A stretch of DNA of 64,000 bases from the IMG/VR virus record IMGVR_UViG_3300030117_008055, positions 41,320 through 105,319 of that record, one strand, 5' to 3'. The stretch comes from a virus. Shown here one piece after another: positions 2,498 to 55,095 of this stretch (the stretch's first letter is position 1; every line of letters begins with the position of its first letter). The notes under the pieces are model-generated. The model had not been told where the DNA came from. It did no database searches and saw only the letters and a list, made by a program, of their open reading frames with translations. The translations under genes and the position numbers were made by a program.

Positions 2498-2986
2498 ATG
2501 GCAACATTTTCAAGACACGTAGCTAGCGTAGGTAACGCAGCATCATACCAGGTATCTGGCATACCGTGGATTTCTGGTTCTTCGATGCCCATCAATGATG
2601 GAAGTGCGGACGGCGGCGCGGATGACATGCCGGCCGAAATTAAATTCGAGTTTCCAAGAGTCACAAAGTCTGTTACAATTCTATATGCAGCCGGCGCCGC
2701 TGGCACTCCCACAAATGGCGGAGGGACCATGCATGGTTCAACCACCGCGGGGCTTAGAATCCACTTTAACTCTACTGGGTCAGGTAATGTATTGTCAAAA
2801 CGTCACTTTGTGGAGCTTAATGAGATTAACGAGTCAATGACTTTTAATGTGCGGTGCAAAGAGATATACATCTCTAGAGCGGAAACTGCTGATGGCGAAC
2901 CCATTGAATTTAGGGTAATTTGTGACTTAACAAACATTCCTGCCGGCGAAATGGGTGCACTAACTGGCTCTGGCTTGACAGAGTAG
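2498..2986 (+). CDS. Probable virion structural protein, unknown
   Basis: The 162-residue product has a good ribosome binding site (AGAGAGG) and a composition rich in Gly, Ser, Ala and Thr with alternating hydrophobic residues, suggesting a beta-sandwich. A segment KSVTILYAAGAAG and a later IHFNSTGSGNV are visible but not diagnostic. It lies between the bS21 pair and the first giant fibre-like gene. It could be a head decoration or fibre-connector protein; this is inferred from context. Confidence 0.55.
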   Translation: MATFSRHVASVGNAASYQVSGIPWISGSSMPINDGSADGGADDMPAEIKFEFPRVTKSVTILYAAGAAGTPTNGGGTMHGSTTAGLRIHFNSTGSGNVLSKRHFVELNEINESMTFNVRCKEIYISRAETADGEPIEFRVICDLTNIPAGEMGALTGSGLTE

Positions 2987-3000
2987 GGAGATAAGAATTA

Positions 3001-16981: not shown

Positions 16982-19900
16982 ATGTCAGACGATAGATTTA
17001 AGTTTATTTCACCGGGCGTCTTCATCGAGGAGATTGATCAGTCACAGTTGCCGGAGTTAACTGAGCGCATGGGTCCAGTTGTTGTTGGGCGTTTTCGCAA
17101 AGGACCATCAAATAGACCTGTAAAAATTAAAGATTTTAACGAGCTAGTTGACGTTTTTGGAGCGCCTGCTCCTGGAAACGCATCTGGCGATATCTGGCGC
17201 TCTGCTGCGATGACAGCACCCACTTATGCTGCATATGCTGCTCAAGCTTGGTTAAGAAATAATACTCCTTGCACCATTATCCGCTTGCTTGGTGTTTCGC
17301 ACGAAGATGCAGACTCATACAGCACCAGCCCAACTGCTCCTGCAGGCTGGAGAACGGCTAATACTATAGCGAAAACCGGATCCGTAGGTGGAGCTTACGG
17401 CTTGCTTGTCATGCCTGATCCTGATGCAACAAATCAAGGTGCAACGACAGGCTCTCTGGTAACCACAATAAAAATTCAACAAGACCTTCAAGCTGGCCAC
17501 TGGATTAAGATTGGAATTCCAAACCATCTTCATGTAGGCGGCGTGGGCGCAACTCCAAACGAAGCGCAGTCTCTGCAGTTTCTTTTCGCGGCTAACTCGG
17601 ACGCCCCAGGAGACCAAACATCAATCAAGATTCTTGCTGGTACTGGAACTGGAGAAGCGAACACTACAGAAGCGATGAACAGGCTAGTTGCTCTTATTAA
17701 CGGAAGCACTGCAGAGGGCGCTGGTCAGCAGGCCGCGCTCGATGCCTTGGAAAATGGCGCTTATGGCGTGCATGCTGCCGGCACAACTGGTGTTGCCTCG
17801 TTAGCAGCTATTCAAGCCTCTCTCACTGCTAGCTACACTGCTACCAATGTAGGCGCTGAGGACAACGCAGTAGGGACGCTCACAATCTCGACTGTTCAGG
17901 GAGGAAACTTACCTAACAATATTAGAATTATGGTGCGCGATTCTCTTATCGGCGGCGCCGATGGTGTCGCTACTCTTGGAGTCGCAACTGTCGATTCTGA
18001 GAATCATGCTGAGATGGAGTTAACTTCATCAACCGCTGTGCCTGTTACAGGAGCTTTGGGTGCCATCTGGTATGTTGAAGATGGCTACGTCCAGCTAATG
18101 GGAACTCCCCGTGATGCTCTTGATTCTGATAATGTACCAGTTACAAGTTCTGGTGTTTGGATTCGTTCGACAGGAGGCCAGTCTTTCCACGCAAGGGTTG
18201 CTTCAGGTTCTGCTGGAACTGTCTTGCAAGGAGCTAAGTTTAATTTTGATCCAACCTCGGATCAATTCATCCGTAAATCCTTTAACACTGATCCAACTGC
18301 AACTAATTCTGATTTGATTGATACATCAGCCGGCGGCGCTGTGCAGAAATACTTCTTGGGCGAGACCTTTGAGGAGGAGATTCGCACAAGGCTAAGTGCT
18401 AACTCTGTTAGCGCTTCAGCTGCAGGTGATTATCTTGCATGCGTTGTTGGTCTTAGCCGGCCCACACCTTCAACTGATTGGTCTAATCACCTTGTCTCTG
18501 CAACAGCAGGCGGAACTGGTTGGTTCTTCTCACAAGACAAGCGTGGAGCTGTTGAATCTGGTAACGGATTTGATCCAACTGATACTAGCATGGTTGAGAA
18601 ACTTTTCCGGTTTGTTGCTCTTGACAATGGCGAGATGACAAATAGAGAAATTAAAATTTCACTAGCAGACATTAAGCAGCCTGCTAATAACTTTGTAAAG
18701 TTTGGATCTTTCACTGTGTTGATTCGCGATGCAAAAGATACAGACAATAATCCAGTTGTCTTAGAAAGATACACAGGAGTTAACTTAGATCCTACATCTT
18801 CAAAATACATTGGCAGGGTTATTGGTGACAAAGAGTACGCCTATGATACTGTCTCAAGAACAGTTAGACAGTATGGTACCTATGATAATGCATCTAAATT
18901 TGTACGCGTGCTTGTCTCTGCTTTTGTTGACGCAGGAAATGCTGAAGGATTGCTTCCTTTTGGTGTATACGGACCTGTTGTGCCTGATACCTTGGAAGTT
19001 CTAGGAAATCAAGGTCATACTGATGCTGATCCTAAAATTAACAATTTAACTCTCGCCACTCCTGCTGATATTAAAGGCGCTGGATCTTGGGTTGTTGGAG
19101 CAGATAGCTTACCAACTGCTTCTTTGCAGAACATCGATGCTCTTGTTAATACGGCCGCATCGCCTATTGATGGGGATGGTAGTGACAACGTTGTTTGGGA
19201 TGCTGGTCGCGCCGATCTTACTGGTGCCATTGAGTGGCCATCAAATAGAATTAGAGTTAGCGCTTCCGAGGGAGACTTAACTCGCCTATCTCAGGCCTAC
19301 TTTGGATATCAATCCAATCGTGCCGGCACTAGAATATTTGCTGAGGAAAACTTGGACCACTTCAGAGGGCCGGCACTTGGAGTTGACATGTTTAGTCAAA
19401 CAGTTAGCGCTAGCCATTACTCTTGGATCTTTACTTTGGATGATCTGGTCGTTGTTAATTCTGCTGATGGGCTATCAGTTAAGTCCGCAGTTCACACTAG
19501 TGGATCCCGAGCTAGCGCCACATCAAAGACCGGCCTAAGCGGATCAGACTCAATTCTTGATGCGGGATTCAACCGGTTTACCTCTCCAGTTTTTGGAGGC
19601 CAAGATGGTCTAGACGTCACAGAGAAGGATCCGTTCCGGAATCGTTACTTGTCTACCGGATCGTCGGCGACTACAAACTATGCTTGGAATACTATTGAGC
19701 GATCAATTAATGTTCTGTCAGACCCAGAGTTTATCGAGTTTGATATCGCAACAATTCCAGGCTTAACCAATCAAACTCTTACTGATCAGCTTGTTGTTGC
19801 AGTTGAGGAACGCGCTGATGCTTTGGCAATTATTGATCTTAGCGGAAGTTACGAGCCTCCTCATGAGGGCATTGTTGCCGGCGAAGCAGTCTCTAGAAGA

Positions 19901-20599
19901 ACTGGGTCAGTTGATAATGTTGTTGCAAATCTTAAGGGTCGAGGCCTTAACTCAAGTTACGCATGTGCCTTCTTCCCGTTTGTTCAGATTCGAGATACGG
20001 TGAGCGATGCGATTCTATTCGTCCCGCCCTCCGTTGTCGCTCTGGGTACTATGTCTAGTTCGCAGCGCAGATCAGCAGTCTGGTTTGCCCCAGCTGGATT
20101 TACCCGCGGTGGCTTAAGCGAAGGTTCTGCCGGCTTGCCTGTTGTAGGAGTGCGCACCCGCGTTACTTCCGACCAGCGTGACAAGCTTTACGATGCAAAC
20201 ATTAATCCAATTGCAAGTTTCCCTGCAGAGGGTATTGTGGTGTTCGGTCAGAAAACACTTCAGGTTACGCCTTCGGCCCTTGACAGGATTAATGTTCGAC
20301 GGCTTCTTATCTTCCTTAAGAAGGAAATTTCCAGAATTGCATCGAGAACACTCTTCGAGCAAAACGTTCAGTCGACTTGGGATCGCTTCAAAGGCGAGGT
20401 TAACCCATTCTTGGCTGGAGTGAAAGCTGGGCTAGGCTTAACCGACTACAAGTTGGTTCTCGACAGCACCACAACCACAGATGAGCTTGTAGATAGAAAC
20501 ATTCTATACGCAAAGATTTTCATTAAACCAGCAAGAGCCATTGAGTTTATCGCACTTGATTTTATTATCACACGCAGTGGCGCATCTTTTGACGATTAA
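16982..20599 (+). CDS. 18: Tail sheath protein, gp18-like, very long
   Basis: The protein begins FKFISPGVFIEEID, the conserved start of contractile sheath proteins, followed by GPVVVGRFRKGPSNRPVKI and NELVDVFG. The C-terminal part contains the conserved sheath core: VVGVRTRVTSDQRDKLYDAN, INPIASFPAEGIVVFGQKTL, the segment INVRRLLIFLKKEISR and the final IEFIALDFIITRSGASF. It contracts to drive the tail tube into the cell. At 1205 residues it is almost twice T4 gp18 (659); the extra length lies in the middle (about residues 110-750), Ala/Gly/Thr-rich and probably forming surface domains. It is followed by the tube gene as usual. Confidence 0.93.
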   Translation: MSDDRFKFISPGVFIEEIDQSQLPELTERMGPVVVGRFRKGPSNRPVKIKDFNELVDVFGAPAPGNASGDIWRSAAMTAPTYAAYAAQAWLRNNTPCTIIRLLGVSHEDADSYSTSPTAPAGWRTANTIAKTGSVGGAYGLLVMPDPDATNQGATTGSLVTTIKIQQDLQAGHWIKIGIPNHLHVGGVGATPNEAQSLQFLFAANSDAPGDQTSIKILAGTGTGEANTTEAMNRLVALINGSTAEGAGQQAALDALENGAYGVHAAGTTGVASLAAIQASLTASYTATNVGAEDNAVGTLTISTVQGGNLPNNIRIMVRDSLIGGADGVATLGVATVDSENHAEMELTSSTAVPVTGALGAIWYVEDGYVQLMGTPRDALDSDNVPVTSSGVWIRSTGGQSFHARVASGSAGTVLQGAKFNFDPTSDQFIRKSFNTDPTATNSDLIDTSAGGAVQKYFLGETFEEEIRTRLSANSVSASAAGDYLACVVGLSRPTPSTDWSNHLVSATAGGTGWFFSQDKRGAVESGNGFDPTDTSMVEKLFRFVALDNGEMTNREIKISLADIKQPANNFVKFGSFTVLIRDAKDTDNNPVVLERYTGVNLDPTSSKYIGRVIGDKEYAYDTVSRTVRQYGTYDNASKFVRVLVSAFVDAGNAEGLLPFGVYGPVVPDTLEVLGNQGHTDADPKINNLTLATPADIKGAGSWVVGADSLPTASLQNIDALVNTAASPIDGDGSDNVVWDAGRADLTGAIEWPSNRIRVSASEGDLTRLSQAYFGYQSNRAGTRIFAEENLDHFRGPALGVDMFSQTVSASHYSWIFTLDDLVVVNSADGLSVKSAVHTSGSRASATSKTGLSGSDSILDAGFNRFTSPVFGGQDGLDVTEKDPFRNRYLSTGSSATTNYAWNTIERSINVLSDPEFIEFDIATIPGLTNQTLTDQLVVAVEERADALAIIDLSGSYEPPHEGIVAGEAVSRRTGSVDNVVANLKGRGLNSSYACAFFPFVQIRDTVSDAILFVPPSVVALGTMSSSQRRSAVWFAPAGFTRGGLSEGSAGLPVVGVRTRVTSDQRDKLYDANINPIASFPAEGIVVFGQKTLQVTPSALDRINVRRLLIFLKKEISRIASRTLFEQNVQSTWDRFKGEVNPFLAGVKAGLGLTDYKLVLDSTTTTDELVDRNILYAKIFIKPARAIEFIALDFIITRSGASFDD

Positions 20600-24970: not shown

Positions 24971-25840
24971 ATGTCATTTAAAATAGCAGCAGAAATAGGT
25001 ATACTAGGTGAGTCACGTTTTGCAAATGTGCCTTTTAAAGGACCAGGCGAAGGGTTTGCACCTAGTCGAGAAGCTGAAGCTGGCACGAAAATAGAATTTA
25101 TACCCATACACTATAATAACGCACCCGTCATCTCATTCATAGCTTTTATGCCCAGTATTAAAGACAATATTAAACAAGGCATTCAGACAACACAGCCTTT
25201 TGGACGTCTAGATCCGATTAGGATGTGGAGAAGTTCCGAAAGAACAATAGATGTTAGCTTTAAGATAGCTTCCTCATCAAAAGAAATGGCTTTAAGAAAT
25301 TTAAATAACTTAAGTTGGCTTTTAGCTTCGACTTATCCAACATATGATTCTTCAAAGTGTGGCTGCGCAACCTCGGTTGCCGCATCACCAATGTTTCGTG
25401 TTAAATACGCTAATTTAATAACTAGCACATCGAACTATGACGGCTTGTTATCTGTCATACAGGGGGTAGGGGTTGAGCACAACTTTGAAAGAGGTGTTAT
25501 ACACATCGATGCCGATGGTAAAGATAGCAGCCTTTTAACAAATGCTAAGTTTCCAAAACAAGCTGGCAATTATTTAGTTGCATCCGAAATTTCAGTTAGT
25601 TGCACTTTGGACGTCGTGCATGAGGACTCGCTAGGATGGGATTATCACACCGGAGAGTGGCGAGGGCGTACTGGTGCTGGATATCCATATGGATTAGGCA
25701 CCATAAAAGTAGCTGCCGACCCTCCTGCCTCTGGTGGCGGCGGCGCAACATCTCAAGGTTTAAGTCAAGACTTTTTTCAAAACGCAGAAAATACTTACGG
25801 CCGAGAAGCAGAGGCTGCAGCTGCAAAAATACTTGGATAA
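24971..25840 (+). CDS. Baseplate/tube-end protein, gp48/gp54-like
   Basis: The 289-residue product has a beta-rich middle with RTIDVSFKIASSSKEMALRN, then the helix NLNNLSWLLASTYPTY, followed by VKYANLI and IQGVGVEHNFERGVI. This arrangement resembles the tube-like proteins that start the tail tube on the baseplate (T4 gp48 and gp54) and related LysM-neighbour proteins in other contractile tails. The C-terminus is Gly/Ser/Ala-rich. It is followed directly by a LysM-like baseplate gene, again matching T4 logic. The exact T4 counterpart cannot be decided. Confidence 0.5.
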   Translation: MSFKIAAEIGILGESRFANVPFKGPGEGFAPSREAEAGTKIEFIPIHYNNAPVISFIAFMPSIKDNIKQGIQTTQPFGRLDPIRMWRSSERTIDVSFKIASSSKEMALRNLNNLSWLLASTYPTYDSSKCGCATSVAASPMFRVKYANLITSTSNYDGLLSVIQGVGVEHNFERGVIHIDADGKDSSLLTNAKFPKQAGNYLVASEISVSCTLDVVHEDSLGWDYHTGEWRGRTGAGYPYGLGTIKVAADPPASGGGGATSQGLSQDFFQNAENTYGREAEAAAAKILG

Positions 25841-25846
25841 AAGATT

Positions 25847-26179
25847 ATGAGATACTCAAAGAACAAAATAAAAACCAGTAAAAATCGTGCCTACAGACAA
25901 TACTTAAAAAATCGCGGTTTAAAACACATATCACATTACAATACAAGCAAGCTTAGGCACCCTACTGTTGAAAATTTACAAGATTTCGAAAGAGTTAGTC
26001 ATGTTTGGAAAACTGGAGATAAGTGGTATAAATTAGCTGACTTATACTATAAGGATCCAACTAAGTGGTGGGTAATTGCTTTTTACAATCAAAGACCTAC
26101 AGAAGCACATGTGACTCCTGGTGAGGTTGTATATATACCACTGCCCTTAGATTCTATTTTATATCAGATAGGGTATTAG
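25847..26179 (+). CDS. LysM-like baseplate wedge protein, gp53-like
   Basis: This 110-residue protein has a very basic N-terminus and then WKTGDKWYKLADLYYKDPTKWWVIAFYN followed by VTPGEVVYIPLP. That is the LysM-type fold (helix pair between two short strands) seen in small baseplate proteins including T4 gp53 and phage P2 gpX. It should anchor at the baseplate inner ring. It starts six bases after the previous stop and ends one base before the next ATG, so the three genes are coupled. Confidence 0.65.
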   Translation: MRYSKNKIKTSKNRAYRQYLKNRGLKHISHYNTSKLRHPTVENLQDFERVSHVWKTGDKWYKLADLYYKDPTKWWVIAFYNQRPTEAHVTPGEVVYIPLPLDSILYQIGY

Positions 26180-26180
26180 T

Positions 26181-29000
26181 ATGAGCAAAGACACATCTCA
26201 GTCAGCAGCGACTGACAAAAGCATAACCTCAGAAGAGCAGGCTCAAATAGATGCGCAAGGAGCTGTATCATCTCCACAGTCTGAGCAAGCTGATTTGCAA
26301 AAGCGCAAAGATCAGCTTAAAGAAACACAAGCTGCAAAGCAAAAAAAAGCAGCTAGAAGAAACGCAGAAAGAAATCTTAGAAACATTCAGCAGTGCTTAT
26401 TGTGTGAAAACATAGATACAATTTCAAACTATCATAGACAAAATTCTGATAAGTTTGCATATCAAGTTATTAGGCAAATGTATGGCTCTAGTGAGAGGAT
26501 TGTTAATGAGCTAAAAAGCTTGCCTGACCTCGATGGCTTCTTTTGTGTTAGAACATCTATTTTATCTCTGCTGCAGCCGGATATAAGAATTTTTAAAGTT
26601 ACTCATGAAGTGGCTGCTCCAACACCAGATGGTGTCGCTAGAGAGCCCAAGACAAACCCCACAAGACCAACATACAGAGAAATAATTTTTTCTAGTGTTT
26701 TTGGGACTGAAAACGCAACTAGCACTCAGCAATATTTAAACTCTGAAGCCTCAGAGCCAAACTGGAGAAATGTTGGACTTCAAAGCTTTACCTTTAATCA
26801 GTTTGGTAAATCACATGGAGCAATGGAGCAGAACATTCAGTGTCAATTAAGGCTTTATGTTAAAAGCCTAAAAGATTTAGTTGCGATATCTCCCGGCTCT
26901 CAGGCCAGGTATGTTGACTTGATGCTTTGGCCAGAGGCAAAAATTAACAGAGATACACAACAATATAATCCCAAACATTACGAAATAAAAGTTGTCATGG
27001 GCTACAAAAGACCACCTAAGCAAGCTCTAGAAGGACTTAAGCCAACAAGAGAAGAAAGAGAATTTTTAAAGAATATACATCTTTTTAATTACGTTGTTTC
27101 TTTGACTCTTTACAAGTATGATTTTAGCATTAAAGAAACTGGCGAGGTTGACGTTACAATAGATTATTTTGGAAGAGTCGATTCTGTCTTTAATAGCTCC
27201 GCGGCATCTCCATTAAAGGGCGGCATAGTTGTTGCAAAAAATGGAGGAAAGCTGGAGCTAAAGCCTGAAATGAAAGGAAGCCAGGATTTTATGACATTTT
27301 CAAAAATAAAAAGTCAATTAGGAAACTTGGTAGTTTCTAAACAAAATCCTGATTTAGCCACTGGTGATTTAATTGATCAAGTAGCAGAATTATTAAAAAA
27401 TCCACTCTTTAGGCACATGTATAAAGATGCTTATGATATTATAATCACAAAAGAGTTTGAACCTGCGGATGTTCAAACTGCTTTAGATAACTTAACTTCT
27501 AAAGAAGGCGCTAGTTTGATGGCAGCTGTGCTTCGAAGACAATCTATGAGCATAAAAGGAGAGGCATTTCAACTTTTTATGAAACAACTTCTTGATGGCA
27601 ATACTATTAGTGAAGATGTCGGTGATAGAATGTTTGCGATTAGTGTCAATAAGGAAAATATGGATACGGCACTTGGCATTATAAATGCACCCGCCAAAGG
27701 AGCAGACAAGGCAAAGAGAGAAGAAATAAAAACTAATACTTCAAATGCAATCGGATTAGCTGCAAAAAGCGTCAGGGTTGGAAAAGTCAAAGATTTGTCA
27801 TCTGTTTTGAACTCGCTTCAGAAAACCGAGGAACAAGCCGGCGACCTAGCTTCAAATGTAGAATCAGAATCTTCATCTAAGGACGCTGCGTCTATAGACA
27901 CAATTAAAGGCGCCGCGGCACAATCAATTGTCACCAGCAAGTCAACAGGAGACTCATATGAATTTTATTTCATATATCTTGGAGACATTATAGAATTAGC
28001 AGCAAAAAATGCTGGCATGTTCGCTTTCCTAAAAGAAGAAAAGCCTCCGTTTAACCCTGATTCCTACATGACTCAGGAAGTTGATAAAGACTACACGCTG
28101 ACTAATATGAGGCTTTTGCTTGGGCCTTTAGAATACCAAGATGCATCTGGAAAAATTCGCAGCATTAATTTGGCTGAATTTCCGATATCATATGATTTAT
28201 TTCGCAATTGGTTTTTAACCAAAATAGTCAGGGAGGATAACTCTAAGATATCTCTTGGCAGTTTTTTAAATAAATTAATAAATCAGTTGGTACTTCCATC
28301 TTTGGGGGCGGACTGCTTACGTCCTATAAAATTAAGAAACACAAGGTTTCAAAACATATATGTGACAATTCCTGGAACTCCTGTCGGGTCTGCTGAGCAG
28401 CTTCAGGGCGCTTTTGATACTGCGGAACTTTTACCAATGGAAAGGAAAATAGACGTATCCTCAGGCAGATTTGCAGCTGCGTTTAGCAAGCCCGCAAGAC
28501 AGAAAAGAGAGGCAGGAGTTGAGGCCATAGTAAAAAATAGTTATGACTATAAACTAATCCAAGTAAATTCTATTAAAAGCATTGTCTCTAGAAAAGCAGA
28601 TTGTAAGGAAGACTTAAAAGATGGAATATATCATTTTAATATTGGTTCCGACAGGGGTATTTTGAAAGAAATGATATTTTCGAAAACTGACCTGCCTGGC
28701 TTAGCAGAGCTAAGATCAGCTCAAGCGATAGAAGCTGGAGGCGACCAGCTAAAACAATTAGCATTTCCGTTCAACTGTAATTTAAAACTAGTTGGAAACA
28801 CACTATTTATACCAGGTATGATATTCTATGCTAATCCTAGCTTTTTGGGGCTAGGCAACCCTCAAGACAAAAATTCTATTGCTTATCAATTAAATTTAGG
28901 GGGCTACTTTTTGGTCTTAACAACAAAAACAACAATTTCCCCAGGCCTCTTTGAAACTGAGGTGGAAGGCGTTACTATCGGACACGGGAAGGTAACATGA
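26181..29000 (+). CDS. Large baseplate hub-like structural protein
   Basis: The 939-residue product has a low-complexity Gln/Lys/Ala-rich N-terminus (1-65), a long middle region with beta-type segments (IQCQLRLYVKSLKDLV, YEIKVVMGYK), a helical region around 440-590, and a C-terminal domain ending with LVGNTLFIPGMIFYANP and YFLVLTTKTTISPGLFETEVEGV. The last pattern recalls hub proteins (T4 gp27 and gpD types), in which a beta-barrel ends with 'G..F.PG' and a closing strand. It is therefore likely a baseplate hub component, with moderate confidence. It ends one base before the next start. Confidence 0.5.
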   Translation: MSKDTSQSAATDKSITSEEQAQIDAQGAVSSPQSEQADLQKRKDQLKETQAAKQKKAARRNAERNLRNIQQCLLCENIDTISNYHRQNSDKFAYQVIRQMYGSSERIVNELKSLPDLDGFFCVRTSILSLLQPDIRIFKVTHEVAAPTPDGVAREPKTNPTRPTYREIIFSSVFGTENATSTQQYLNSEASEPNWRNVGLQSFTFNQFGKSHGAMEQNIQCQLRLYVKSLKDLVAISPGSQARYVDLMLWPEAKINRDTQQYNPKHYEIKVVMGYKRPPKQALEGLKPTREEREFLKNIHLFNYVVSLTLYKYDFSIKETGEVDVTIDYFGRVDSVFNSSAASPLKGGIVVAKNGGKLELKPEMKGSQDFMTFSKIKSQLGNLVVSKQNPDLATGDLIDQVAELLKNPLFRHMYKDAYDIIITKEFEPADVQTALDNLTSKEGASLMAAVLRRQSMSIKGEAFQLFMKQLLDGNTISEDVGDRMFAISVNKENMDTALGIINAPAKGADKAKREEIKTNTSNAIGLAAKSVRVGKVKDLSSVLNSLQKTEEQAGDLASNVESESSSKDAASIDTIKGAAAQSIVTSKSTGDSYEFYFIYLGDIIELAAKNAGMFAFLKEEKPPFNPDSYMTQEVDKDYTLTNMRLLLGPLEYQDASGKIRSINLAEFPISYDLFRNWFLTKIVREDNSKISLGSFLNKLINQLVLPSLGADCLRPIKLRNTRFQNIYVTIPGTPVGSAEQLQGAFDTAELLPMERKIDVSSGRFAAAFSKPARQKREAGVEAIVKNSYDYKLIQVNSIKSIVSRKADCKEDLKDGIYHFNIGSDRGILKEMIFSKTDLPGLAELRSAQAIEAGGDQLKQLAFPFNCNLKLVGNTLFIPGMIFYANPSFLGLGNPQDKNSIAYQLNLGGYFLVLTTKTTISPGLFETEVEGVTIGHGKVT

Positions 29001-29001
29001 T

Positions 29002-30471
29002 ATGTCAACCTCTGCATTAGAAATATTCTCTGCTAGAAATAATATAAATGATAATTATAAAGAATTTGCAGATATCAAATATTTTGATCTTCATAGGAAG
29101 CACTTCTTATATGGTCGGATCGATCGCGATGGAGATGCAGTTGAATTATTAGATACAAACCTAGCTCAAATCGAGGGTGGTGCAAGAACTGAATTTGCAG
29201 TTGATTTTGTTAAAGATGCGTATGATTTTTTGAGAAATGAAATTTCAAGGCTAACAAAAGGAAGTTACATAGAGCCGAACAGTGTTTATAATCCAAACTC
29301 ATTTCAGGTCTATAAAGCCTGGCGCTCAGGAGATTTAGAATACAGCTATTATCGCTACTTAAACAATCTATACACAGACTTTGTACAAAACTTTTTAGAG
29401 CGGGAGCGTCGTTTTGAATATATCTTAAACTTTGATACTTTTATGCAGCAATTCTTTAAGTATATTAGTACGATTGCATATCGATTTCCTATTACGAAAA
29501 CCGGATACATACTGTCAAACCATTGTTCTCCTTTTGTTAGCGGGTTAATGATTGAAATAGCCAAAGAACAGCATGGAATCGTAAATGACAAGCGTATTTT
29601 GGACTTTACAGAAGACCCAAATTATACATTGATAAAGAGAGCTACTAAGCGTGTTGGATTTATGGTGGATAGAAATGCACCCTGGAGGTTTGTTTTTAAT
29701 TTAGCTTCTGGTGGCACAACTAAAGGCGGTAAGTTTAATACCGACATGATTAAAACTTACGATGGTAAAAAAATAAGTCAAAAATTAGTGGGCACTGGTG
29801 GCGCGTTCTTTATGAGTAAGTATGGAGTTACTTTCTTAAAGCAAAGAAAGGACGCTCCAGTGGGAGAGTCACATCCGCTGGCCGGCACTTCGTTTAGCAC
29901 CCACGTCTTTGATCAGTATTATAGAAAAACACATTTACATGAGATAGAAAACATTAGAAATTATATGTTTTTATTTTATTCTTCATTCTTTAATCAGTTT
30001 ACTACGTTTAGCAAGCTTGAAGAATATCAATGTCAGACTTCACTAGAGTTTAACACAAAATTAGCAATAAAATATATTAATAGAAGGGAGTTGCCTGGAC
30101 AAGATCCTAGATTTGCAGGAACAAACGTTTTGATCCCAGATGTTTTTAATAAAACATATAAAGATGATTTTTGGCTGAGTTTTATTTTGAGGTTTAGGCT
30201 TTTGGAGACAAAACAAAATTTATCGGAAGCAAGACTGCAGAGAATAGAGCGAGATATGATGGGAATATATAGGGCCATAGGAAGAACAGCTGCTTTAAAT
30301 TACATTAATAACTTGACAAAAGGCTTTCACGATCTTAAGTTTGTACATGAAGGAGATTACCATCAAGGGCAACCACGATCTGAATACGAATCAAGAAAAA
30401 GAAAGTCTCTCATGGAAATATACGAGAGCACAGACACTGAACTAGTTGCGACTTTGAATGAAATAAAATAA
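29002..30471 (+). CDS. Probable baseplate/tail protein, unknown
   Basis: The 489-residue protein is rich in aromatic residues (Tyr and Phe) and appears mixed alpha/beta. Segments such as FRNEISRLTKGSY and FLFYSSFFNQFTTFSKLEEY are visible but match no family that can be recalled. It is the last member of the tail block and abuts the polymerase gene by three bases. A structural role is inferred from the company it keeps. It ends in a charged helix (RKSLMEIYESTDTELVATL). Confidence 0.5.
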   Translation: MSTSALEIFSARNNINDNYKEFADIKYFDLHRKHFLYGRIDRDGDAVELLDTNLAQIEGGARTEFAVDFVKDAYDFLRNEISRLTKGSYIEPNSVYNPNSFQVYKAWRSGDLEYSYYRYLNNLYTDFVQNFLERERRFEYILNFDTFMQQFFKYISTIAYRFPITKTGYILSNHCSPFVSGLMIEIAKEQHGIVNDKRILDFTEDPNYTLIKRATKRVGFMVDRNAPWRFVFNLASGGTTKGGKFNTDMIKTYDGKKISQKLVGTGGAFFMSKYGVTFLKQRKDAPVGESHPLAGTSFSTHVFDQYYRKTHLHEIENIRNYMFLFYSSFFNQFTTFSKLEEYQCQTSLEFNTKLAIKYINRRELPGQDPRFAGTNVLIPDVFNKTYKDDFWLSFILRFRLLETKQNLSEARLQRIERDMMGIYRAIGRTAALNYINNLTKGFHDLKFVHEGDYHQGQPRSEYESRKRKSLMEIYESTDTELVATLNEIK

Positions 30472-30474
30472 TCT

Positions 30475-31647
30475 ATGCTTTTTCAAACGCTTGATAACAA
30501 AAGGGAGTGTTATGCAGTCTACTCCGATGGAGAGCTTTATCACTACCCTAATAATTTACACATGACGGAAACTTGGGATTGGACATGTCACGCTCCGCCT
30601 AATGTTGACTTTGCACAAGTGTGGTGTAACGGAAAAAGTCTAAGTGAGGTATGCCCGGAAGAACTTAAAATTAGTTTACAGCATATCCAAAATAAAGCTC
30701 GGGCTTTTTTTAAATCATTTCAATCTTCAAAAATGTCAATGGATGATGTGTGCTTTTATGATTTAGTTCCAAAAAATTTTTTGTTAGATTATTGCAATAT
30801 TAAAAATGAAATATCTAAGCATGTTTTTTCTAGCTACCAAAAACCAAAAAACTATGACTTTTTAGTTGAGCTTGTAGAGATGCTTGATGATATATCTTGT
30901 CACACGTTGAACTTTGACCACACAAGACTATCATCATTATCAGCAGCCGAGCACAAAAAAGCATTGGCGTGCAATAATTTAAAAAAAATATTTTATAATC
31001 CATGGGGTAGTGTTACGGGACGGCTAACCACGAGACCTAATAGCTTTCCAATACTAACACTGCCTCGTACTTTACGCTCAGGCCTGACTCCAAACAATGA
31101 TCTTTTTGTTGAGCTAGATTACAATTCTGCAGAGATGAGAACAGCGTTTGCTCTTCTGGGGATGCAGCAGCCGGAAAATGATATTCATGATCATCTTAAA
31201 AGCGAGGTCTTCAATGATAAGCTTAGTAGGGATGAGGTTAAACAGAAAGTTTTTGCTTGGCTTTATAATCCAAAAGCTAGCAATAAAAAATTGCAAAAGT
31301 TTTTAGACAAAGAAAAGATTCTAGAAAAGTATTACACGTCTGGAGTTGTTAAAACTCCATTTGATCGCGACATACAAGTTGAGCCAGAAAAAGCATTGAA
31401 TTATCTAGTTCAAAGCACCACTAGTGATTTGTTCCTAGCACAAGCTATCAAGATATATAATATGCTTAAAGATAGCAACTCTCATATTGCTTTTTGCATC
31501 CATGACAGTTTAGTGCTAGATGTTGAAAGATCTGATAGGCAGTTGGTGTCAAAAATAATCTCTGTCTTCTCACAGACACCGTATGGTCATTTTAAAACAA
31601 ACGTCTCTTTTGGTAAAGATTTTGGCACTATGAGGAAAATTAAATGA
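30475..31647 (+). CDS. polA: Minimal family A DNA polymerase
   Basis: This 390-residue protein holds the polymerase core of family A. Visible motifs: VTGRLTT (180-186, thumb/palm TGR), motif A FVELDYNSAEMRT with catalytic Asp215, an O-helix with Arg252, Lys256, Phe260 and Tyr264 at exactly the R-x3-K-x3-F-x3-Y spacing of Klenow residues 754/758/762/766, and motif C IHDSLVLDV with Asp344. The 3'-5' exonuclease domain is missing or not recognisable, and no 5' nuclease domain is present. Typical family A enzymes are 600-900 residues. It shares four bases with the FtsZ-like gene downstream. It could act in gap filling, repair or restart beside the family C enzyme at 45604. Confidence 0.85.
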   Translation: MLFQTLDNKRECYAVYSDGELYHYPNNLHMTETWDWTCHAPPNVDFAQVWCNGKSLSEVCPEELKISLQHIQNKARAFFKSFQSSKMSMDDVCFYDLVPKNFLLDYCNIKNEISKHVFSSYQKPKNYDFLVELVEMLDDISCHTLNFDHTRLSSLSAAEHKKALACNNLKKIFYNPWGSVTGRLTTRPNSFPILTLPRTLRSGLTPNNDLFVELDYNSAEMRTAFALLGMQQPENDIHDHLKSEVFNDKLSRDEVKQKVFAWLYNPKASNKKLQKFLDKEKILEKYYTSGVVKTPFDRDIQVEPEKALNYLVQSTTSDLFLAQAIKIYNMLKDSNSHIAFCIHDSLVLDVERSDRQLVSKIISVFSQTPYGHFKTNVSFGKDFGTMRKIK

Positions 31648-32492
31648 ATGTGATAGGTTTAGGAGAGGCAGGCTGTAAAATATCTCATTATCTTAGCAAA
31701 TATGATGATTATCAAACATTTCAGATCGATGTAGAAAATAAGCAATATGATAATTTTATAAAAATTAAAAAATTAGATAGCCATGAAGATTATGAAGCAA
31801 AGTACAAGCCTTTAAAAATAAATGTTGCCAATGGGCTTGATACGTTTTTAATACTGTCGGGCGCTGGTGCAATATCGGGTGCTGTTCTGAGAATATTAGA
31901 GCAGCTAGACAATAACAATGTTAAAATTATTTATATAAAGCCTAGACTCTCAGAGCTTTCCAGCTTGCAAAAGACTCGCCATAGAATTGTAAGTCAAGTG
32001 TTGCAAGAATATTGTAGATCTGCAAAACTAAAAGAGTTTACAATTATCGATAATTCTCTGATTGAAGATTTATTGCCAGAGATACCGCTTGATGATTATT
32101 GGAGCCCAATCAATCAACTTATAGGTGATACATTCCACATGATTAACTTTTTTAATAAAAGCGAGCCTCTTTTGAAGAGTAGTAATGCTGTGCCTAAAAC
32201 TGCAGTCATGTCGACTTACTCTTTAGTTGACTTTTCAAACATGCAGGAAAAAAAATTGTACGATTTATCTTTCCCCAGAGCAAAAAGTTATTATTTTGCT
32301 CTAGGAAAGCAGTTTATTAAGGATAATAAAGACATTTTGACACAGGTACGACAATTTATATCTTTGAATGACAGTGAAAACTGTGATTGCTCTTATGAGA
32401 TTCATCAGACTGATTACGATCAAAACTATGTGTATGGATATCATTATGCAAGTTTTGTTCAGGAGCAAGATAAAAACTTGTTTACAAGTTAA
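31644..32492 (+). CDS. Divergent FtsZ/tubulin-like protein
   Basis: This 282-residue product looks like the GTPase domain of the FtsZ/tubulin superfamily. Residues 1-30 form a strand, a Gly-rich loop (GLGEAG, 5-10) and a helix, as loop T1 of FtsZ. Residues 66-88 read TFLILSGAGAISGAVLRIL, matching the strand-T4 loop-helix signature (GGGTGSG), though degenerate. Then VKIIYIKP (93-100), a helix with QKTRHRIVSQVL, and FTIIDNSLIEDLL (132-144), matching the FtsZ strand-helix before T6. A clear T7 NxDxxD motif is absent, so GTP hydrolysis may be weak or lost. Phage tubulins such as PhuZ centre replicating DNA; here the role is open. It overlaps polA by four bases. Confidence 0.55.
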   Translation: MNVIGLGEAGCKISHYLSKYDDYQTFQIDVENKQYDNFIKIKKLDSHEDYEAKYKPLKINVANGLDTFLILSGAGAISGAVLRILEQLDNNNVKIIYIKPRLSELSSLQKTRHRIVSQVLQEYCRSAKLKEFTIIDNSLIEDLLPEIPLDDYWSPINQLIGDTFHMINFFNKSEPLLKSSNAVPKTAVMSTYSLVDFSNMQEKKLYDLSFPRAKSYYFALGKQFIKDNKDILTQVRQFISLNDSENCDCSYEIHQTDYDQNYVYGYHYASFVQEQDKNLFTS

Positions 32493-32516
32493 TAAAGAGT
32501 GTTTATTATATTAACT
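32487..32516 (+). promoter_or_regulatory. A/T-rich inverted repeat after FtsZ-like gene
   Basis: AGTTAATA (32487-32494) pairs perfectly with TATTAACT (32509-32516); a second pairing TAATAAA/TTTATTA lies inside it. It overlaps the stop codon of the FtsZ-like gene and precedes the SSB gene. It may stop or process the transcript; there is no T tract. Confidence 0.3.
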
Positions 32517-32571
32517 GCAGATAGTTGGAATATTTGCCAGCTATACTATACCTTAAATAAAGGAGATAACA

Positions 32572-33312
32572 ATGGGTATTGATTTAACAAAAATGAAGGC
32601 AAAGCGCGATGCCTTAGAGAATCGCGACACCGGTAAGACCGTTTTTTGGCGACCGGAAGATGGTGAACAAACTATCAGGATTCTACCGCCCTCAGATGGA
32701 GACCCCTTTAAGGAGTATTGGTTCCATTACAACTTGGGCAAGAATGCTGGTTTTCTAAGTCCTAAGAAGAACTTTGGCGAAGATGATCCGTTGAATGATT
32801 TTATTCGTCAGCTCTTCAAGGATGGCTCTGAAGAGTCGGTCAAGATGGCTAAGAACCTCTCAGCGCGCCAGCGCTTCTTCTCTCCTGTAATTGTACGTGG
32901 AGAGGAAGAAAAAGGGCCGCGGCTGTGGGGTTTTGGCAAGATGGCCTACAAGGAGCTTCTGAATCTCGTCCTCAACCCAGAGTATGGTGATATTACTGAT
33001 GTGACTGAAGGCACTGACCTTGTTATTAATTATGGCAAGCCAGCAGGTGCACAGTTCCCTCAGACTACTATCACCCCTCGTCGTCGTCCTTCTGTTCTCT
33101 CTGAGTCTGAGGACGAGATTCGTACTTGGCTAGACGGTATTCCAGATGCGGATGAGGTGTTCGAGCGTAAGACGCCTGAGCAGGTTCAATCGATGCTAGA
33201 TGAATTCTTGCTCGGCGCCGGCGATGCGGAAGAGACCTCAACAGAGGCTACCCATTACGGTAATTCCACTACGCAAGTTGACAAAGCTTTTGAGGAGCTT
33301 CTCGGAACCTAG
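32572..33312 (+). CDS. 32: Single-stranded DNA binding protein, gp32-like
   Basis: The 246-residue protein has the T4 gp32 layout. A basic N-terminus (KMKAKRDALEN) would mediate cooperativity, followed by an OB-type core containing TIRILPPSDGDPFKEYWFHYN, a family hallmark, and a region around RRRPSVLSE. The C-terminus is acidic and flexible (from about 195), ending VDKAFEELLGT, typical for tails that bind partner proteins. No Cys/His zinc site is visible. The codon use is more G+C-rich and biased than in neighbours, in line with high expression. A hairpin terminator follows. Confidence 0.82.
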   Translation: MGIDLTKMKAKRDALENRDTGKTVFWRPEDGEQTIRILPPSDGDPFKEYWFHYNLGKNAGFLSPKKNFGEDDPLNDFIRQLFKDGSEESVKMAKNLSARQRFFSPVIVRGEEEKGPRLWGFGKMAYKELLNLVLNPEYGDITDVTEGTDLVINYGKPAGAQFPQTTITPRRRPSVLSESEDEIRTWLDGIPDADEVFERKTPEQVQSMLDEFLLGAGDAEETSTEATHYGNSTTQVDKAFEELLGT

Positions 33313-33326
33313 CGCATCACCGCAGG

Positions 33327-33356
33327 GAGGCACGGGTTACAGGTGCCTCATTTTTA
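33327..33356 (+). terminator. Intrinsic terminator after SSB
   Basis: GAGGCAC (33327-33333) pairs with GTGCCTC (33343-33349) around a nine-base loop, followed by ATTTTTATTT. This allows strong expression of the SSB with limited read-through into the following genes. Confidence 0.75.
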
Positions 33357-33378
33357 TTTAATACTTCTAGTTATTTGT

Positions 33379-33696
33379 ATGGAAGTGTTGCTTCATGCGC
33401 TCGTAACCGCGTCGGTGTTTTTACTAGGTGTAGTAGCCGGTGCTCTAATAGAGAATGCAAGAATGAAGTATCTAGATAGATTAAAATATCTTGAAAAAAC
33501 AACACAAGAAATTCTTTTGCCTCTTGCAAACAAGATAAGTCATATAGATGCTAGACAAAATTTTAGGCCTCCAGTGAGAGAAACATGGGTTGATTATGAA
33601 AAACTAGACCCAGACGAAACACTGGAGTTGCCTAAAGAATATCTAGAACAGTTAAACTTAAGAGGTAAAAATGGCGAAGGCAAAGAAGTTAGGTAA
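33379..33696 (+). CDS. Small membrane-anchored protein, unknown
   Basis: The start is set at ATG 33379. A GTG at 33343 would lie within the terminator stem and is less likely, although it would keep the frame. The 105-residue product has one N-terminal membrane helix (about residues 5-25, HALVTASVFLLGVVAGALI) and a charged cytoplasmic part with coiled-coil character and LPKEYLEQLNLRGKNGE. No family is recognised. It overlaps the uvsX start by 26 bases, so the two are likely translated together. Confidence 0.5.
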   Translation: MEVLLHALVTASVFLLGVVAGALIENARMKYLDRLKYLEKTTQEILLPLANKISHIDARQNFRPPVRETWVDYEKLDPDETLELPKEYLEQLNLRGKNGEGKEVR

Positions 33697-34786
33697 GCTA
33701 AACTTATCAGAGATGCGCAATCTGATTAATAAAAAAGCTGGTATGGATGTTGCGCACAATTTAACACAAGATAATCCAACGGAAGTAAAAGACTGGATCC
33801 CAACAGGTTCTAGGTGGCTTGATAGTATTATCTGTCGAGGCAAGCCGGCAGGAATCCCTGTAGGAAAAGTTGTAGAAATCGCTGGACTTGAAGGATCGGG
33901 CAAGTCTTATATGGCCGCTCAAATTGCTGCCAATGCTCAGAGCAAAGACATTGATGTTATTTATTTTGACTCTGAGTCGGCTATTGATCCTACTTTCTTG
34001 AAAAATGCTGGTTGCGATCTTGAGCGGCTGCTCTATGTACAAGCTCAGAGTGTTGAGTTTGTTTTAGAAACAATCGAGGAACTTTTAGGCTCTAATGACA
34101 ATAGAATGTTGTTTGTCTGGGATAGTCTAGCTCTGACTCCGGCGATTAGTGATGTTGATGGAGACTTCAACCCTCAGTCATCAATGGCCATGAAGGCTAG
34201 AATTTTGGCTAAAGGCATGTCTAAATTGACTGTTCCGATTGCTAACTCACAATCAACTTTCTTAGTTCTTAACCAGCTTAAGACGAACATTCCTCAAGGC
34301 CCAGCTGCTCGAATTGAGGCTATGACTACTCCTTATATAACTCCTGGTGGTAAAGCTATGCATTATGCATATTCTCTAAGAATTTGGCTTACTGGCAGGA
34401 AAGCAAAAGCTAGCTATATTCAGGATGATCATGGATTTAGAATTGGTTCTGAAGTAAAGGTTAAACTTAAAAAGAGTCGCTTTGGTACTGAAGGGCGAGA
34501 GTGCACTTTTAAAATTGTTTGGGCTGGCAGTGTTGGCATCCAAGACCAAGAATCTTGGCTTGAGGCTGTAAAGGGATCCAATAATATCGTTCAGCGAGGC
34601 GCCTGGTATGAGCTAGTGTACGAAGATGGTACAACTGAAAAATTTCAAGCAGCTAAGTGGCTAGAGAAACTTCAAAGTGAGAAGTTTAAAGATAGGGTTC
34701 TTCAAATTATGGATGAAGAAATTATCATGCGCTTTGAGAAAAAAGAAGGCAATGCTGATGATTTCTACAATGTTGATCCCGAATAA
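33671..34786 (+). CDS. uvsX: RecA/UvsX-type recombinase
   Basis: This 371-residue protein is a RecA-family ATPase like T4 UvsX (391). The Walker A motif is AGLEGSGKS (71-79), Walker B lies in MLFVWDSLALTP, and the conserved loop regions with SSMAMKARILAKGMSKL and FLVLNQLKTNIPQG are present. The N-terminal part (1-45) is the oligomerisation helix. It drives strand invasion, recombination-dependent replication and repair. It belongs to the replication block between SSB and RNase H. Confidence 0.93.
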   Translation: MAKAKKLGKLNLSEMRNLINKKAGMDVAHNLTQDNPTEVKDWIPTGSRWLDSIICRGKPAGIPVGKVVEIAGLEGSGKSYMAAQIAANAQSKDIDVIYFDSESAIDPTFLKNAGCDLERLLYVQAQSVEFVLETIEELLGSNDNRMLFVWDSLALTPAISDVDGDFNPQSSMAMKARILAKGMSKLTVPIANSQSTFLVLNQLKTNIPQGPAARIEAMTTPYITPGGKAMHYAYSLRIWLTGRKAKASYIQDDHGFRIGSEVKVKLKKSRFGTEGRECTFKIVWAGSVGIQDQESWLEAVKGSNNIVQRGAWYELVYEDGTTEKFQAAKWLEKLQSEKFKDRVLQIMDEEIIMRFEKKEGNADDFYNVDPE

Positions 34787-43310: not shown

Positions 43311-45341
43311 ATGGCGAGAAGAACAAAAAGCAAATATAGAATATCTAAAAATTATGTTTTTAACGCAGATGCTATATCAAAGATTGAAGAGATTGCAAAA
43401 GGCACTGGTGTGCCGGCAGACATCATAGCTGGAATATTCGTTAATGAAAGCGGCGGTCGTAATAGAGCGCTGGCGATGAATCCTAGATTTATATACGGAA
43501 AAAGTTCCTCAGGTAGAGATAGTAAAACGAGGAGCCCACAGAAGTGGCTCATGAAAAAACTAGTAGGTACAGTAGCTGAGCAATATGGTTCAGCAGGAAA
43601 ATCAGCCCACGGTAAAACTGCGCAAAAAGTATTTAAAGAAATATATCGTCATTCGCCATATTGGGCTGTCTTTTGTGGCGCATTTGGCTTTCTTCAGGTG
43701 CTTGGCTCCCGCGGGATGAAGCGGTATGGGAAAGGTTCGGACGGTGCTCGTAAATTTTATGAAGCATTTCAGTCAGACCCTTACAGGGTTGGTGTTAACG
43801 CAGCGATTGATTGGTGGAAATCTAATCCAGCAGCTAAACAACTTGCACTTAATAGAGACTACAGAGGAGTAACAATAAAATATCTTGGAGGTCTAGGCAC
43901 CGGTGCGTACGAAGCAACGATGAGACGCGCCGCGGATATTTATAGAAGACAGACAGGCATGCAAGGGGGAGAGGTAGCCACATCGCCTGCTCGACGAATC
44001 GCACTGATTGGCGACTCAAACGCAGCGACCATGACGCCTCTGTACGCTTCGCATTTTTCAGGAGATAAAGTCTATAAAGCAAAACCAGCGTCGGGAGCAG
44101 GAACGGAATGGTTTTTGTTTCTTTTGCGAGCTGTGCAGGCAAAAGATGCCAGCAAAGCGCCTCCTAAGCGTGGAGGTAAAAAAATAGCCAAAGACCTTAT
44201 TAATTTTAAACCAGATATAATACATATAACAGCCATGGGGGGCAACGATACAGAGAAAACCACAAGCAAATCAGGATTAAAAGAGATAGAAAAAAATGCC
44301 AAGGCATTGTTTGCTATCATAAAAACATATAAGGGCACTGTTCATGGGCCACCCAAAAATCGCCCGGGATCTGCCTCTACTAATCCTAAATCTGTGTTTC
44401 ATAAGTCAAAAGGAAACAATGCCTCTGAAAGATATACTGCAGCCAGGCAAAAAGTAGCAGAAGTCTTGCAAAAAGCAGCTGCTGATGTAGGTATATCCTT
44501 CTTTAATCCTTTTGGCGGTCAAATACCAGATATGACCAGAAAAGGCTCATATAAAGGAGACGGTATCCATATGGCAGCAGGCGCAGCACGTGCGCACTTT
44601 AATGCTGCGAAAGCAATGCTAGGCGGAGCCACTTCAGGCGCCGGCGGTGTTTCATATTCTTCGGGAGTCGATGCTGCCTCAGGAGGCGCCTCCACAGGCA
44701 CAGGTTCAGGGACATCTGCAGAAGACGAGCATGCTATAGCAATGAGCGCTGAAGAAAGAGAGGCGAGGGCTAAAGAAAGAAGAGAGCGAGAAGAAATAAG
44801 AAAAAAATATAGACAGGCGTTCGACAGCGCTATCACCGCCGGGCTAGAATCGGGGAAAGAAAGTTACGAGGATTTAAAAAATGTATTTCAAACACAAACC
44901 AATCTTGGAAAAGTAGCTATAGCGTCTTATAAGCATAAGGACGATCCTGGTAAAATATTTGATACTGCTTTTAAGAATCAAAATGCGCCACCCGCAGAGA
45001 AGCTAGGGCAAAATGTTGAGGATCCAGATAAAGAAATTGAATCACAATCAGCCGACGGTCGTATACTTAAAAAATATATTGCAGTCTTGAATAAGCATCA
45101 GCCAGATTTTAATTTTGAAGATTTTTATTCTGAGGTTAACACATACATAGCTAAAGGTTTTGGCATGGATGCTATCGAGGATCTTTTTCCAAAATCTGGT
45201 AGGGATTATGTTTTTGGAGACGAGCACTGGAGAGTGTTTGTCTTAATAAGAGATCTTAAAGATAAAATATCCGCTCAAAATGTTTCTGAATCATATAGAT
45301 TTTTAGGAAATCTTGTTAGGGAGATAAAACAAAAATGGTAA
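43311..45341 (+). CDS. Lysozyme-SGNH hydrolase fusion protein
   Basis: This 676-residue protein has at least three parts. Residues 20-215 resemble a lysozyme/transglycosylase domain, with GIFVNESGGRNR (Glu46) and GAFGFLQVLG. Residues 226-435 form an SGNH hydrolase: block I IALIGDSN (Ser236), block II SGAGTEW, block III MGGND (Asn312) and block V GDGIH (Asp417, His420). From about 435 there is a Gly/Ser/Ala-rich linker and then a charged coiled-coil C-terminal region. Glycan cleavage and de-esterification in one protein would suit O-acetylated peptidoglycan, but the substrate is inferred. It could be a virion-associated enzyme rather than the endolysin. Confidence 0.75.
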   Translation: MARRTKSKYRISKNYVFNADAISKIEEIAKGTGVPADIIAGIFVNESGGRNRALAMNPRFIYGKSSSGRDSKTRSPQKWLMKKLVGTVAEQYGSAGKSAHGKTAQKVFKEIYRHSPYWAVFCGAFGFLQVLGSRGMKRYGKGSDGARKFYEAFQSDPYRVGVNAAIDWWKSNPAAKQLALNRDYRGVTIKYLGGLGTGAYEATMRRAADIYRRQTGMQGGEVATSPARRIALIGDSNAATMTPLYASHFSGDKVYKAKPASGAGTEWFLFLLRAVQAKDASKAPPKRGGKKIAKDLINFKPDIIHITAMGGNDTEKTTSKSGLKEIEKNAKALFAIIKTYKGTVHGPPKNRPGSASTNPKSVFHKSKGNNASERYTAARQKVAEVLQKAAADVGISFFNPFGGQIPDMTRKGSYKGDGIHMAAGAARAHFNAAKAMLGGATSGAGGVSYSSGVDAASGGASTGTGSGTSAEDEHAIAMSAEEREARAKERREREEIRKKYRQAFDSAITAGLESGKESYEDLKNVFQTQTNLGKVAIASYKHKDDPGKIFDTAFKNQNAPPAEKLGQNVEDPDKEIESQSADGRILKKYIAVLNKHQPDFNFEDFYSEVNTYIAKGFGMDAIEDLFPKSGRDYVFGDEHWRVFVLIRDLKDKISAQNVSESYRFLGNLVREIKQKW

Positions 45342-55077: not shown

Positions 55078-55095
55078 TTCATGACGAGGTGTATT

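Follow-up and report, generated by a model that had tools for sequence, protein, structure and literature searches.

What does a tubulin-fold protein do when its gene is joined to that of a DNA polymerase? This question is raised by a locus in the virus record IMGVR_UViG_3300030117_008055 of IMG/VR (118,818 bases), of which a stretch of 64,000 nucleotides (nt), positions 41,320 to 105,319, was analyzed and is called the window below. The gene in question, tub, encodes a protein of 282 amino acids (aa), and the open reading frame (ORF) immediately upstream, at 30475–31647, encodes a family-A DNA polymerase (PolA). The preliminary description of this DNA saw in tub a divergent FtsZ/tubulin-like protein translationally coupled to DNA polymerase A. 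The best explanation of the data presented here is that tub represents a family, new to the tubulin/FtsZ superfamily and carried by phages, in which the canonical GTPase and filament machinery has been lost and the guanine-binding end of the pocket kept; the pairing with polA suggests a cytoskeleton protein recruited to phage DNA replication. The described phage tubulins, PhuZ and TubZ, place DNA, virions, and plasmid-like genomes by filaments, according to the literature consulted. Here, in hundreds of stretches of viral contigs, the same fold minus much of the filament machinery goes with the gene of a DNA polymerase.

When the Tub protein was the only query, nothing meaningful was matched in Pfam, PHROGs, NCBIfam, or PDB. 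A profile of 47 family members (61 loci, from which 3 fragments were dropped to leave 58 full-length sequences, and then 11 identical ones) gave one significant match in PDB, at E 7.6e-5: the TubZ protein of Bacillus cereus (4ei7), which aligns colinearly with profile positions 5–205. The runner-up had E 0.29. When the profile was built from 102 members (140 loci, 136 of them full length, de-replicated to 102), TubZ was the sole match below 0.2 (E 2.5e-4). The AlphaFold2 model of the 282-aa protein (predicted local distance difference test, pLDDT, 92.0; predicted template modeling score, pTM, 0.90) shows an N-terminal Rossmann-type domain, a core helix H7, and a C-terminal domain in tubulin order. 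A fold search was the point at which the proposed FtsZ/tubulin-like fold could have failed, and tubulin-superfamily chains were found in all rows listed. With Foldseek against PDB, FtsZ or TubZ stood in 50 of the 50 rows listed (best E 6.3e-12, with a TM-score of 0.66 over the query), including the poorly aligned 8grw_B and 7yop_B, whose TM-scores were 0.38–0.39 despite a low E-value. The 50 rows listed by VIA were all FtsZ, TubZ, CetZ, or structures titled tubulin, microtubule, or flagellar protofilament, the best being CetZ (3zid_B; Z 24.1, 255 residues aligned, 3.0 Å), with FtsZ (2r6r; Z 22.9) and TubZ (4ei7; Z 22.4) among the further matches. In BFVD, the best match was a protein named FtsZ of an uncultured Caudovirales phage (A0A6J5RW92; 452 aa, E 1.1e-10, TM-score 0.74 over the query), which is 170 residues longer than Tub. 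Judging from the predicted structure, it is nearly certain that the Tub protein has the tubulin/FtsZ fold.

Other assignments were considered and rejected. Single-sequence Pfam searches offered two weak Rossmann-type alternatives, saccharopine dehydrogenase (0.017) and TrkA_N (0.2); 12 of the 47 members matched TrkA_N, the best of them at 0.0098, and the fold searches favor the tubulin superfamily. Among scattered weak PHROGs matches, phrog_31126, named terminase small subunit, was found with 3 of the 47 members (best 4.1e-5) and was set aside because the fold searches point elsewhere. A chance or spurious ORF was rejected in view of the 140 homologous loci, of which 136 are full length, and of the low ratio of nonsynonymous to synonymous substitution (dN/dS).

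The family, borne by phages known from environmental DNA, was collected by successive scans of IMG/VR, giving 3, 61, and 80 loci, or 140 distinct loci overall. At least 587 relatives were confirmed among the 600 matching stretches listed; in the scans for tub and polA loci, the best 80 of at least 600 matching stretches were kept, and distant relatives lie outside the sample. The gene is under strong purifying selection (median dN/dS of close pairs 0.065, maximum 0.19, 135 pairs), and G7, Y23, L82, Q121, R125, S126, and H165 are invariant across the 102 sequences. All 12 long related records (118–193 kb) carry tub. In bacterial and archaeal genomes (GTDB), one pattern scan returned 14 stretches, none of which was confirmed as a relative by tblastn. 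Three family members used as tblastn queries against 50,697 phage records gave nothing below E 0.1; the one match, of query residues 2–77 to Vibrio phage GR11A at E 0.8, was inspected and taken as chance. Searches of open-licence PMC full text brought up no description of the family.

Some parts of the active site are kept. The glycine-rich T1 loop noted in the preliminary description is retained as GxGxxG (G5 in 97/102, G7 in 102/102, and G10 in 100/102 sequences). The segment FTIIDNSLIEDLL, recognized from the start as following FtsZ, corresponds to the S6/T6/H6 region and contains N137. Residue 152 is Y or F in 96 of the 102 sequences and residue 153 is aromatic in 89, and both N137 and N157 align to Asn residues of TubZ when the 47-member profile is compared with 4ei7. 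In tubulin, FtsZ, and TubZ, guanine is contacted by such Asn and aromatic residues of T6 and H7. The other elements are eroded or gone. The T4 signature GGGTG[ST]G is not kept and the family form is GxGx(I/V)SG (GxGxx[ST]G in 60/102, a GTG triplet in 2/102), as expected of the degenerate T4 loop described earlier. The T7 catalytic motif, reported as missing, is indeed not recognizable by a conserved acid within residues 172–188, where the best column, 174, is acidic in 67/102 sequences, followed by 185 (65/102) and 182 (39/102). Helix H8 is absent: residues 172–188 are non-helical in the model, and this segment measures 17–19 residues across the 102 sequences. The T3/H3 segment is shortened (median S2–S4 spacing 37 residues, range 32–56, in the 102 sequences), the spacing in FtsZ being about 52 residues. 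H11 and the C-terminal tail are absent as well: 5–21 residues (median 10) follow the last strand in the 102 sequences, and the model has a helical turn of 3 residues there. Conserved positions are also found elsewhere. K or R is present at 188 in 101/102 sequences, and N168 is nearly invariant; from the order of fold elements, Q121, R125, and S126 (end of H5), H165 and N168 (end of H7), and K/R188 would lie at the pole opposite the nucleotide.

How does this anatomy compare with known systems? TubZ/RepX of a Bacillus plasmid (4ei7) is the closest, being the best sequence match and colinear from T1 through H7; its T1 loop, GLGMGGCAIA, resembles that of the family (see the table), and the T6 Asn, the H7 Asn, and an H..IN motif in H7 are common to both. 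However, the tub family is about 100 residues shorter, has lost the T4 signature, conserves no T7 acid, lacks H8 and H11, and is paired with a DNA polymerase, its neighbors here being polA and ssb. TubZ is known from a phage partition system (cited in PMC7824862), two kinds of tubulin are described in jumbo phages (PMC7824862), and PhuZ homologues were found in huge-phage metagenomes (PMC7162821). PhuZ (phiKZ TubZ) is, like Tub, a phage-encoded tubulin fold, but there is no significant sequence similarity to the tub family (hhalign probability 0.6%), and the T4 signature (in RAY PhuZ), the catalytic Asp in T7, and H11 that PhuZ possesses are missing from it. Five stretches were returned when PhuZ relatives were sought in viral contigs, and none was confirmed. 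The PhuZ group occurs in 66.2% of chimallin-encoding phages (PMC10299810); here, the 11 other long records measure 147–193 kb, and none of the 12 long records matched phiKZ chimallin by sequence, a search run without a positive control that therefore shows little. The likeness to FtsZ consists of the fold (Z about 21–23) and of a T4, T5, T6, and H7 register from hhalign, which by itself falls short of significance (probability 0.3% against a single FtsZ sequence) and is illustrative only; identity to FtsZ, TubZ, and tubulin structures in the structure searches is about 9–16%, and T3, the T4 'TG', T7, and H8 are eroded or lost in comparison with FtsZ. By fold, the family is a member of the tubulin superfamily, and by the features tested it stands outside FtsZ, TubZ, and PhuZ. 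The earlier view that it would be unusual among phage tubulins is borne out.

These comparisons bear first on the possibility that Tub is a cytomotive or scaffold tubulin, whose filaments, perhaps with a non-canonical interface, place phage DNA or replication sites as those of TubZ and PhuZ do. The tubulin fold, the significant kinship to TubZ with its nearly identical T1 loop and H..IN motif, and the position of the gene in a replication neighborhood speak for it. Loss of hydrolysis is also compatible with assembly: PhuZ D198A of phage RAY does not hydrolyze and still forms filaments (PMC10299810), and C-tail mutants of Clostridium TubZ retain polymerization and lose GTPase activity (PMC5322520). 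Since both still polymerize, loss of hydrolysis or of the tail alone does not exclude filaments. In Clostridium TubZ, mutants of T100 in the nucleotide site and of E200 in the catalytic loop differ in hydrolysis (PMC5322520). On the other side, the protofilament contact in phiKZ TubZ, tubulin, and FtsZ uses T7, which bears the catalytic Asp, the base of H8, and S9 (PMC3678025), and the dynamics of TubZ assembly depend on the C-tail (PMC5322520). In Tub, T3 is short and H8, H11, and a conserved T7 acid are all missing; several interface parts are lost together, and filaments are therefore less likely. The filament model is judged unlikely, and the idea put forward in the preliminary description, that Tub filaments position replicating DNA, is weakened by the same losses, by the missing T4 'TG', and by the probable status of the coupled PolA as something other than the main replicase (see below). 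If Tub nevertheless formed filaments, a minimal tubulin of about 280 aa would be assembling with no H8, no conserved T7 acid, and an incomplete T3, and it would test the superfamily's requirements for assembly.

A second proposal casts Tub as a dead-end, FtsZ-like subunit, with which the FtsZ filaments of the host are capped or poisoned and division is halted. An FtsZ-type fold in which the T7/H8 half, the bottom interface, is lost is what a capping subunit might have, and other phage proteins target FtsZ, namely lambda Kil and T7 Gp0.4, which binds it. However, the identity to FtsZ structures is low, in the range given above, and tub accompanies polA throughout the loci examined, under strong purifying selection, whereas host-takeover genes are usually accessory and variable. 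An attack on host division is regarded as very unlikely, and co-assembly with host FtsZ, suggested earlier, loses ground for the same reasons of eroded parts and low identity.

The evidence for a polymerase-related function comes from polA itself and from its pairing with tub. The layout of translational coupling claimed in the preliminary description was confirmed: the two genes overlap in ATGA, the upstream ORF matches PF00476, and a GAGG resembling a Shine-Dalgarno sequence stands at 31632–31635, 9–12 nt 5' of the tub ATG, within the 3' end of polA. The polymerase residues of motif A (D215, E220, R222), motif B (R252, K256, F260, Y264), and motif C (H343, D344) are invariant in 45/45 sequences (71 after de-replication, 4 with a stop removed, thinned to 46, with locus L023 left out). 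The PolA model (pLDDT 93.9) matches, with Z 25.3 and 369 residues aligned, the large fragment of Bacillus Pol I, in which the matched range, 316–876, is about 170 residues longer than the 390-aa PolA. No exonuclease family was matched in the library scans, the bifunctional exonuclease/polymerase models matching the polymerase part only, and the exonuclease domain therefore seems reduced to a short N-terminal stub.

A comparison of related phage loci, proposed from the outset as a check, places polA upstream of tub on the same strand in 127 of the 140 loci. The 13 loci with no polA in view have less than 300 bases upstream (8 loci) or 319–749 bases (5 loci); four of them (L011, L084, L093, and L099) begin in ORFs resembling inserts found in other loci. 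PolA is upstream of tub in every testable locus except one contig end. When polA was used as the query, tub was found downstream in 79/79 loci with room for it (one locus being too short), and in a second set centered on one distant polA, tub was present in 80/80, 79 by profile and the 80th as a tub start at the contig end; the two sets overlap in contigs. The start of tub overlaps the polA stop or lies no more than 20 nt away in 76/127 loci, with an overlap in 61, of which 37 are by 4 nt. In a distance correlation over 50 loci, the partial value for tub and polA, corrected for ssb and uvsX, was 0.58 versus 0.05 for tub and ssb, though in this window tub is flanked by ssb on the side opposite polA.

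Taken as a whole, the favored explanation is that Tub is a non-hydrolyzing, guanine-nucleotide-binding, tubulin-fold partner of the miniature PolA, a reading held tentatively and with somewhat less than even confidence. In this mechanism, the protein would bind guanine nucleotide without the usual T7-dependent hydrolysis and would either stay monomeric or make a static assembly. It may then act as an accessory subunit of the small, exonuclease-less PolA, in the manner of a tether, a clamp-like factor, or a placement factor, and the step served by PolA and Tub could be gap filling, primer processing, or recombination-dependent replication. A more specific evolutionary version, in which Tub gave up polymerization and GTP hydrolysis to become a dedicated polymerase accessory subunit, fixed across a large phage lineage and carrying a second conserved site (Q121, R125, S126, H165, N168, R/K188) at the subunit-contact end, is rather doubtful. 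Misato, a member of the tubulin superfamily that acts on the TCP-1 chaperonin, provides a precedent for possibly altered nucleotide and oligomer sites combined with an accessory role (PMC4510148), but it is eukaryotic, contains insertions, and belongs to an unrelated context. If the polymerase role is true, then the tubulin fold would have a task not seen before, and polymerases a partner of a new type.

Several observations weigh against a polymerase partner that has given up its GTPase and its filaments. The spacing between polA and tub exceeds 100 nt in 49/127 loci, 41 of which hold an ORF of about 103 aa with a KL[VI]RD motif, often overlapping both neighbors by 4 nt (for example, about 2465–2776 in L030 and about 4687–5004 in L113). 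Among the 13 loci without polA in view, L112 is the only one with room upstream that shows neither polA nor a known insert; its 454 upstream bases (positions 1–454) hold an ORF containing IDTFIAHPGGPKVL, which may resemble the end of a type III polyketide synthase. No fusion of polA and tub was found among the 140 loci, in which the longest ORF of the family has 298 aa. The partial correlation of ssb and uvsX, 0.59, is similar to that of tub and polA, and these correlations carry no significance test; the pairing of tub and polA can reflect co-regulation alone. Pfam Tubulin (PF00091) gave no match in the record of the window, with the control positive in 13/14 genomes, and was weak in 8/47 members (best E 0.0034). 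An N-x-[DE] at residues 172–174, in 39/102 sequences, is possibly a weakened T7. Finally, the absence of Tub filaments is read from anatomy only.

The inserted KL[VI]RD ORF also bears on a different explanation, in which Tub is a sensor of guanine nucleotide or an enzyme on an old tubulin scaffold, merely co-expressed with nucleotide and replication genes and making no contact with the polymerase. This ORF may resemble a MazG-type pyrophosphatase; with one to three examples as queries, no search of Pfam, NCBIfam, PHROGs, or PDB reached a match below 0.05. A pyrophosphatase-like gene between polA and tub in 41/127 loci would suit such a role, as would the retention of guanine-pocket residues with loss of the phosphate-binding T4 'TG', and the residues Q121, R125, S126, H165, N168, and K/R188, which by topology lie away from the nucleotide like a second site. 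However, no enzyme family was matched by Tub in the libraries searched, and polA is paired with tub in 127 loci versus 41 for the pyrophosphatase-like ORF. A free-standing sensor or enzyme is quite unlikely. One locus carries a different insertion between polA and tub: in L072, at about 2700–4616, a lipoprotein-like ORF of 638 aa contains CDGxDNDCDGxxDE repeats, which may hint at host or surface display.

The favored partnership with PolA has to be placed in the replication system of the phage. The ssb gene follows tub in 114/114 loci and uvsX in 88/88 loci with enough downstream DNA, and the genes downstream also include those for an exonuclease-family protein, a DnaB-like helicase, and a ribonucleotide reductase. 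A DNA polymerase III alpha subunit is encoded in the window and in 11 of the 12 long related records; it is probably the main replicase of the phage and does the bulk of replication. Because this subunit is encoded, PolA is probably a second, auxiliary polymerase. The preliminary description spoke of a T4-like phage, and this stands in part: families of that kind are matched by the genes for head, sheath, tube, UvsX, and the gp32-like protein, but a Pol III alpha is also encoded. The coexistence of Pol III alpha with UvsX, gp32-like, and T4-type head genes and with PolA as a second polymerase is an observation in its own right. The coordinates of the features are collected in Table 1.

Table 1. 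Features of the tub locus and of its surroundings, in positions of the window.
Feature	Position	Strand	Remarks
Miniature family-A DNA polymerase, 390 aa	30475..31647	+	PF00476 7.3e-14; motifs A, B, C kept
Tubulin/FtsZ-fold protein with degenerate active site (tub)	31644..32492	+	282 aa, ATG start
ATGA overlap of polA stop (TGA) and tub start	31644..31647	+	
T1 loop and start of H1, residues 5–14	31656..31685	+	GLGEAGCKIS; family GLGxAGCxIA
Degenerate T4 loop, residues 73–79	31860..31880	+	GAGAISG
N137, T6 position	32052..32054	+	Asn in 101/102
H7 region, residues 152–171	32097..32156	+	Y152, N157 (101/102), H165 (102/102), N168
T7/H8 region, residues 172–188	32157..32207	+	no helix in model, no conserved acid
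gp32-like single-strand DNA-binding protein (ssb)	32572..33312	+	conserved downstream
UvsX/RecA-like recombinase	33671..34786	+	conserved downstream
DNA polymerase III alpha, PHP domain, 1142 aa	45604..49032	+	PF07733 1.4e-50; alpha NTPase, finger, HHH domains

Upstream of polA, two large genes at 26181–30471 (939 and 489 aa) have no convincing family match and lead up to polA with gaps of 1–3 nt; polA and tub may therefore share their transcript. A scan of 25500–33800 for promoters and terminators gave 33 sites resembling promoters, against 23.9 expected, and 10 resembling terminators, against 6.5 expected; it was not drawn on as evidence. Other upstream genes match families of tail tube, sheath, baseplate hub, and major head proteins, two of them being large: the tail sheath gene (16982–20599) encodes 1205 aa, with the best sheath match at residues 626–1203, and the major head protein gene (12320–14167) encodes 615 aa, with the best match at residues 349–598. 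The window also contains, at 43311–45341, a gene for a 676-aa protein with weak matches to GDSL lipase and O-antigen acetylase, possibly a surface-modifying enzyme, and at 55081–56685 a gene for a GroEL-family protein (phrog_5725, 1.7e-143).

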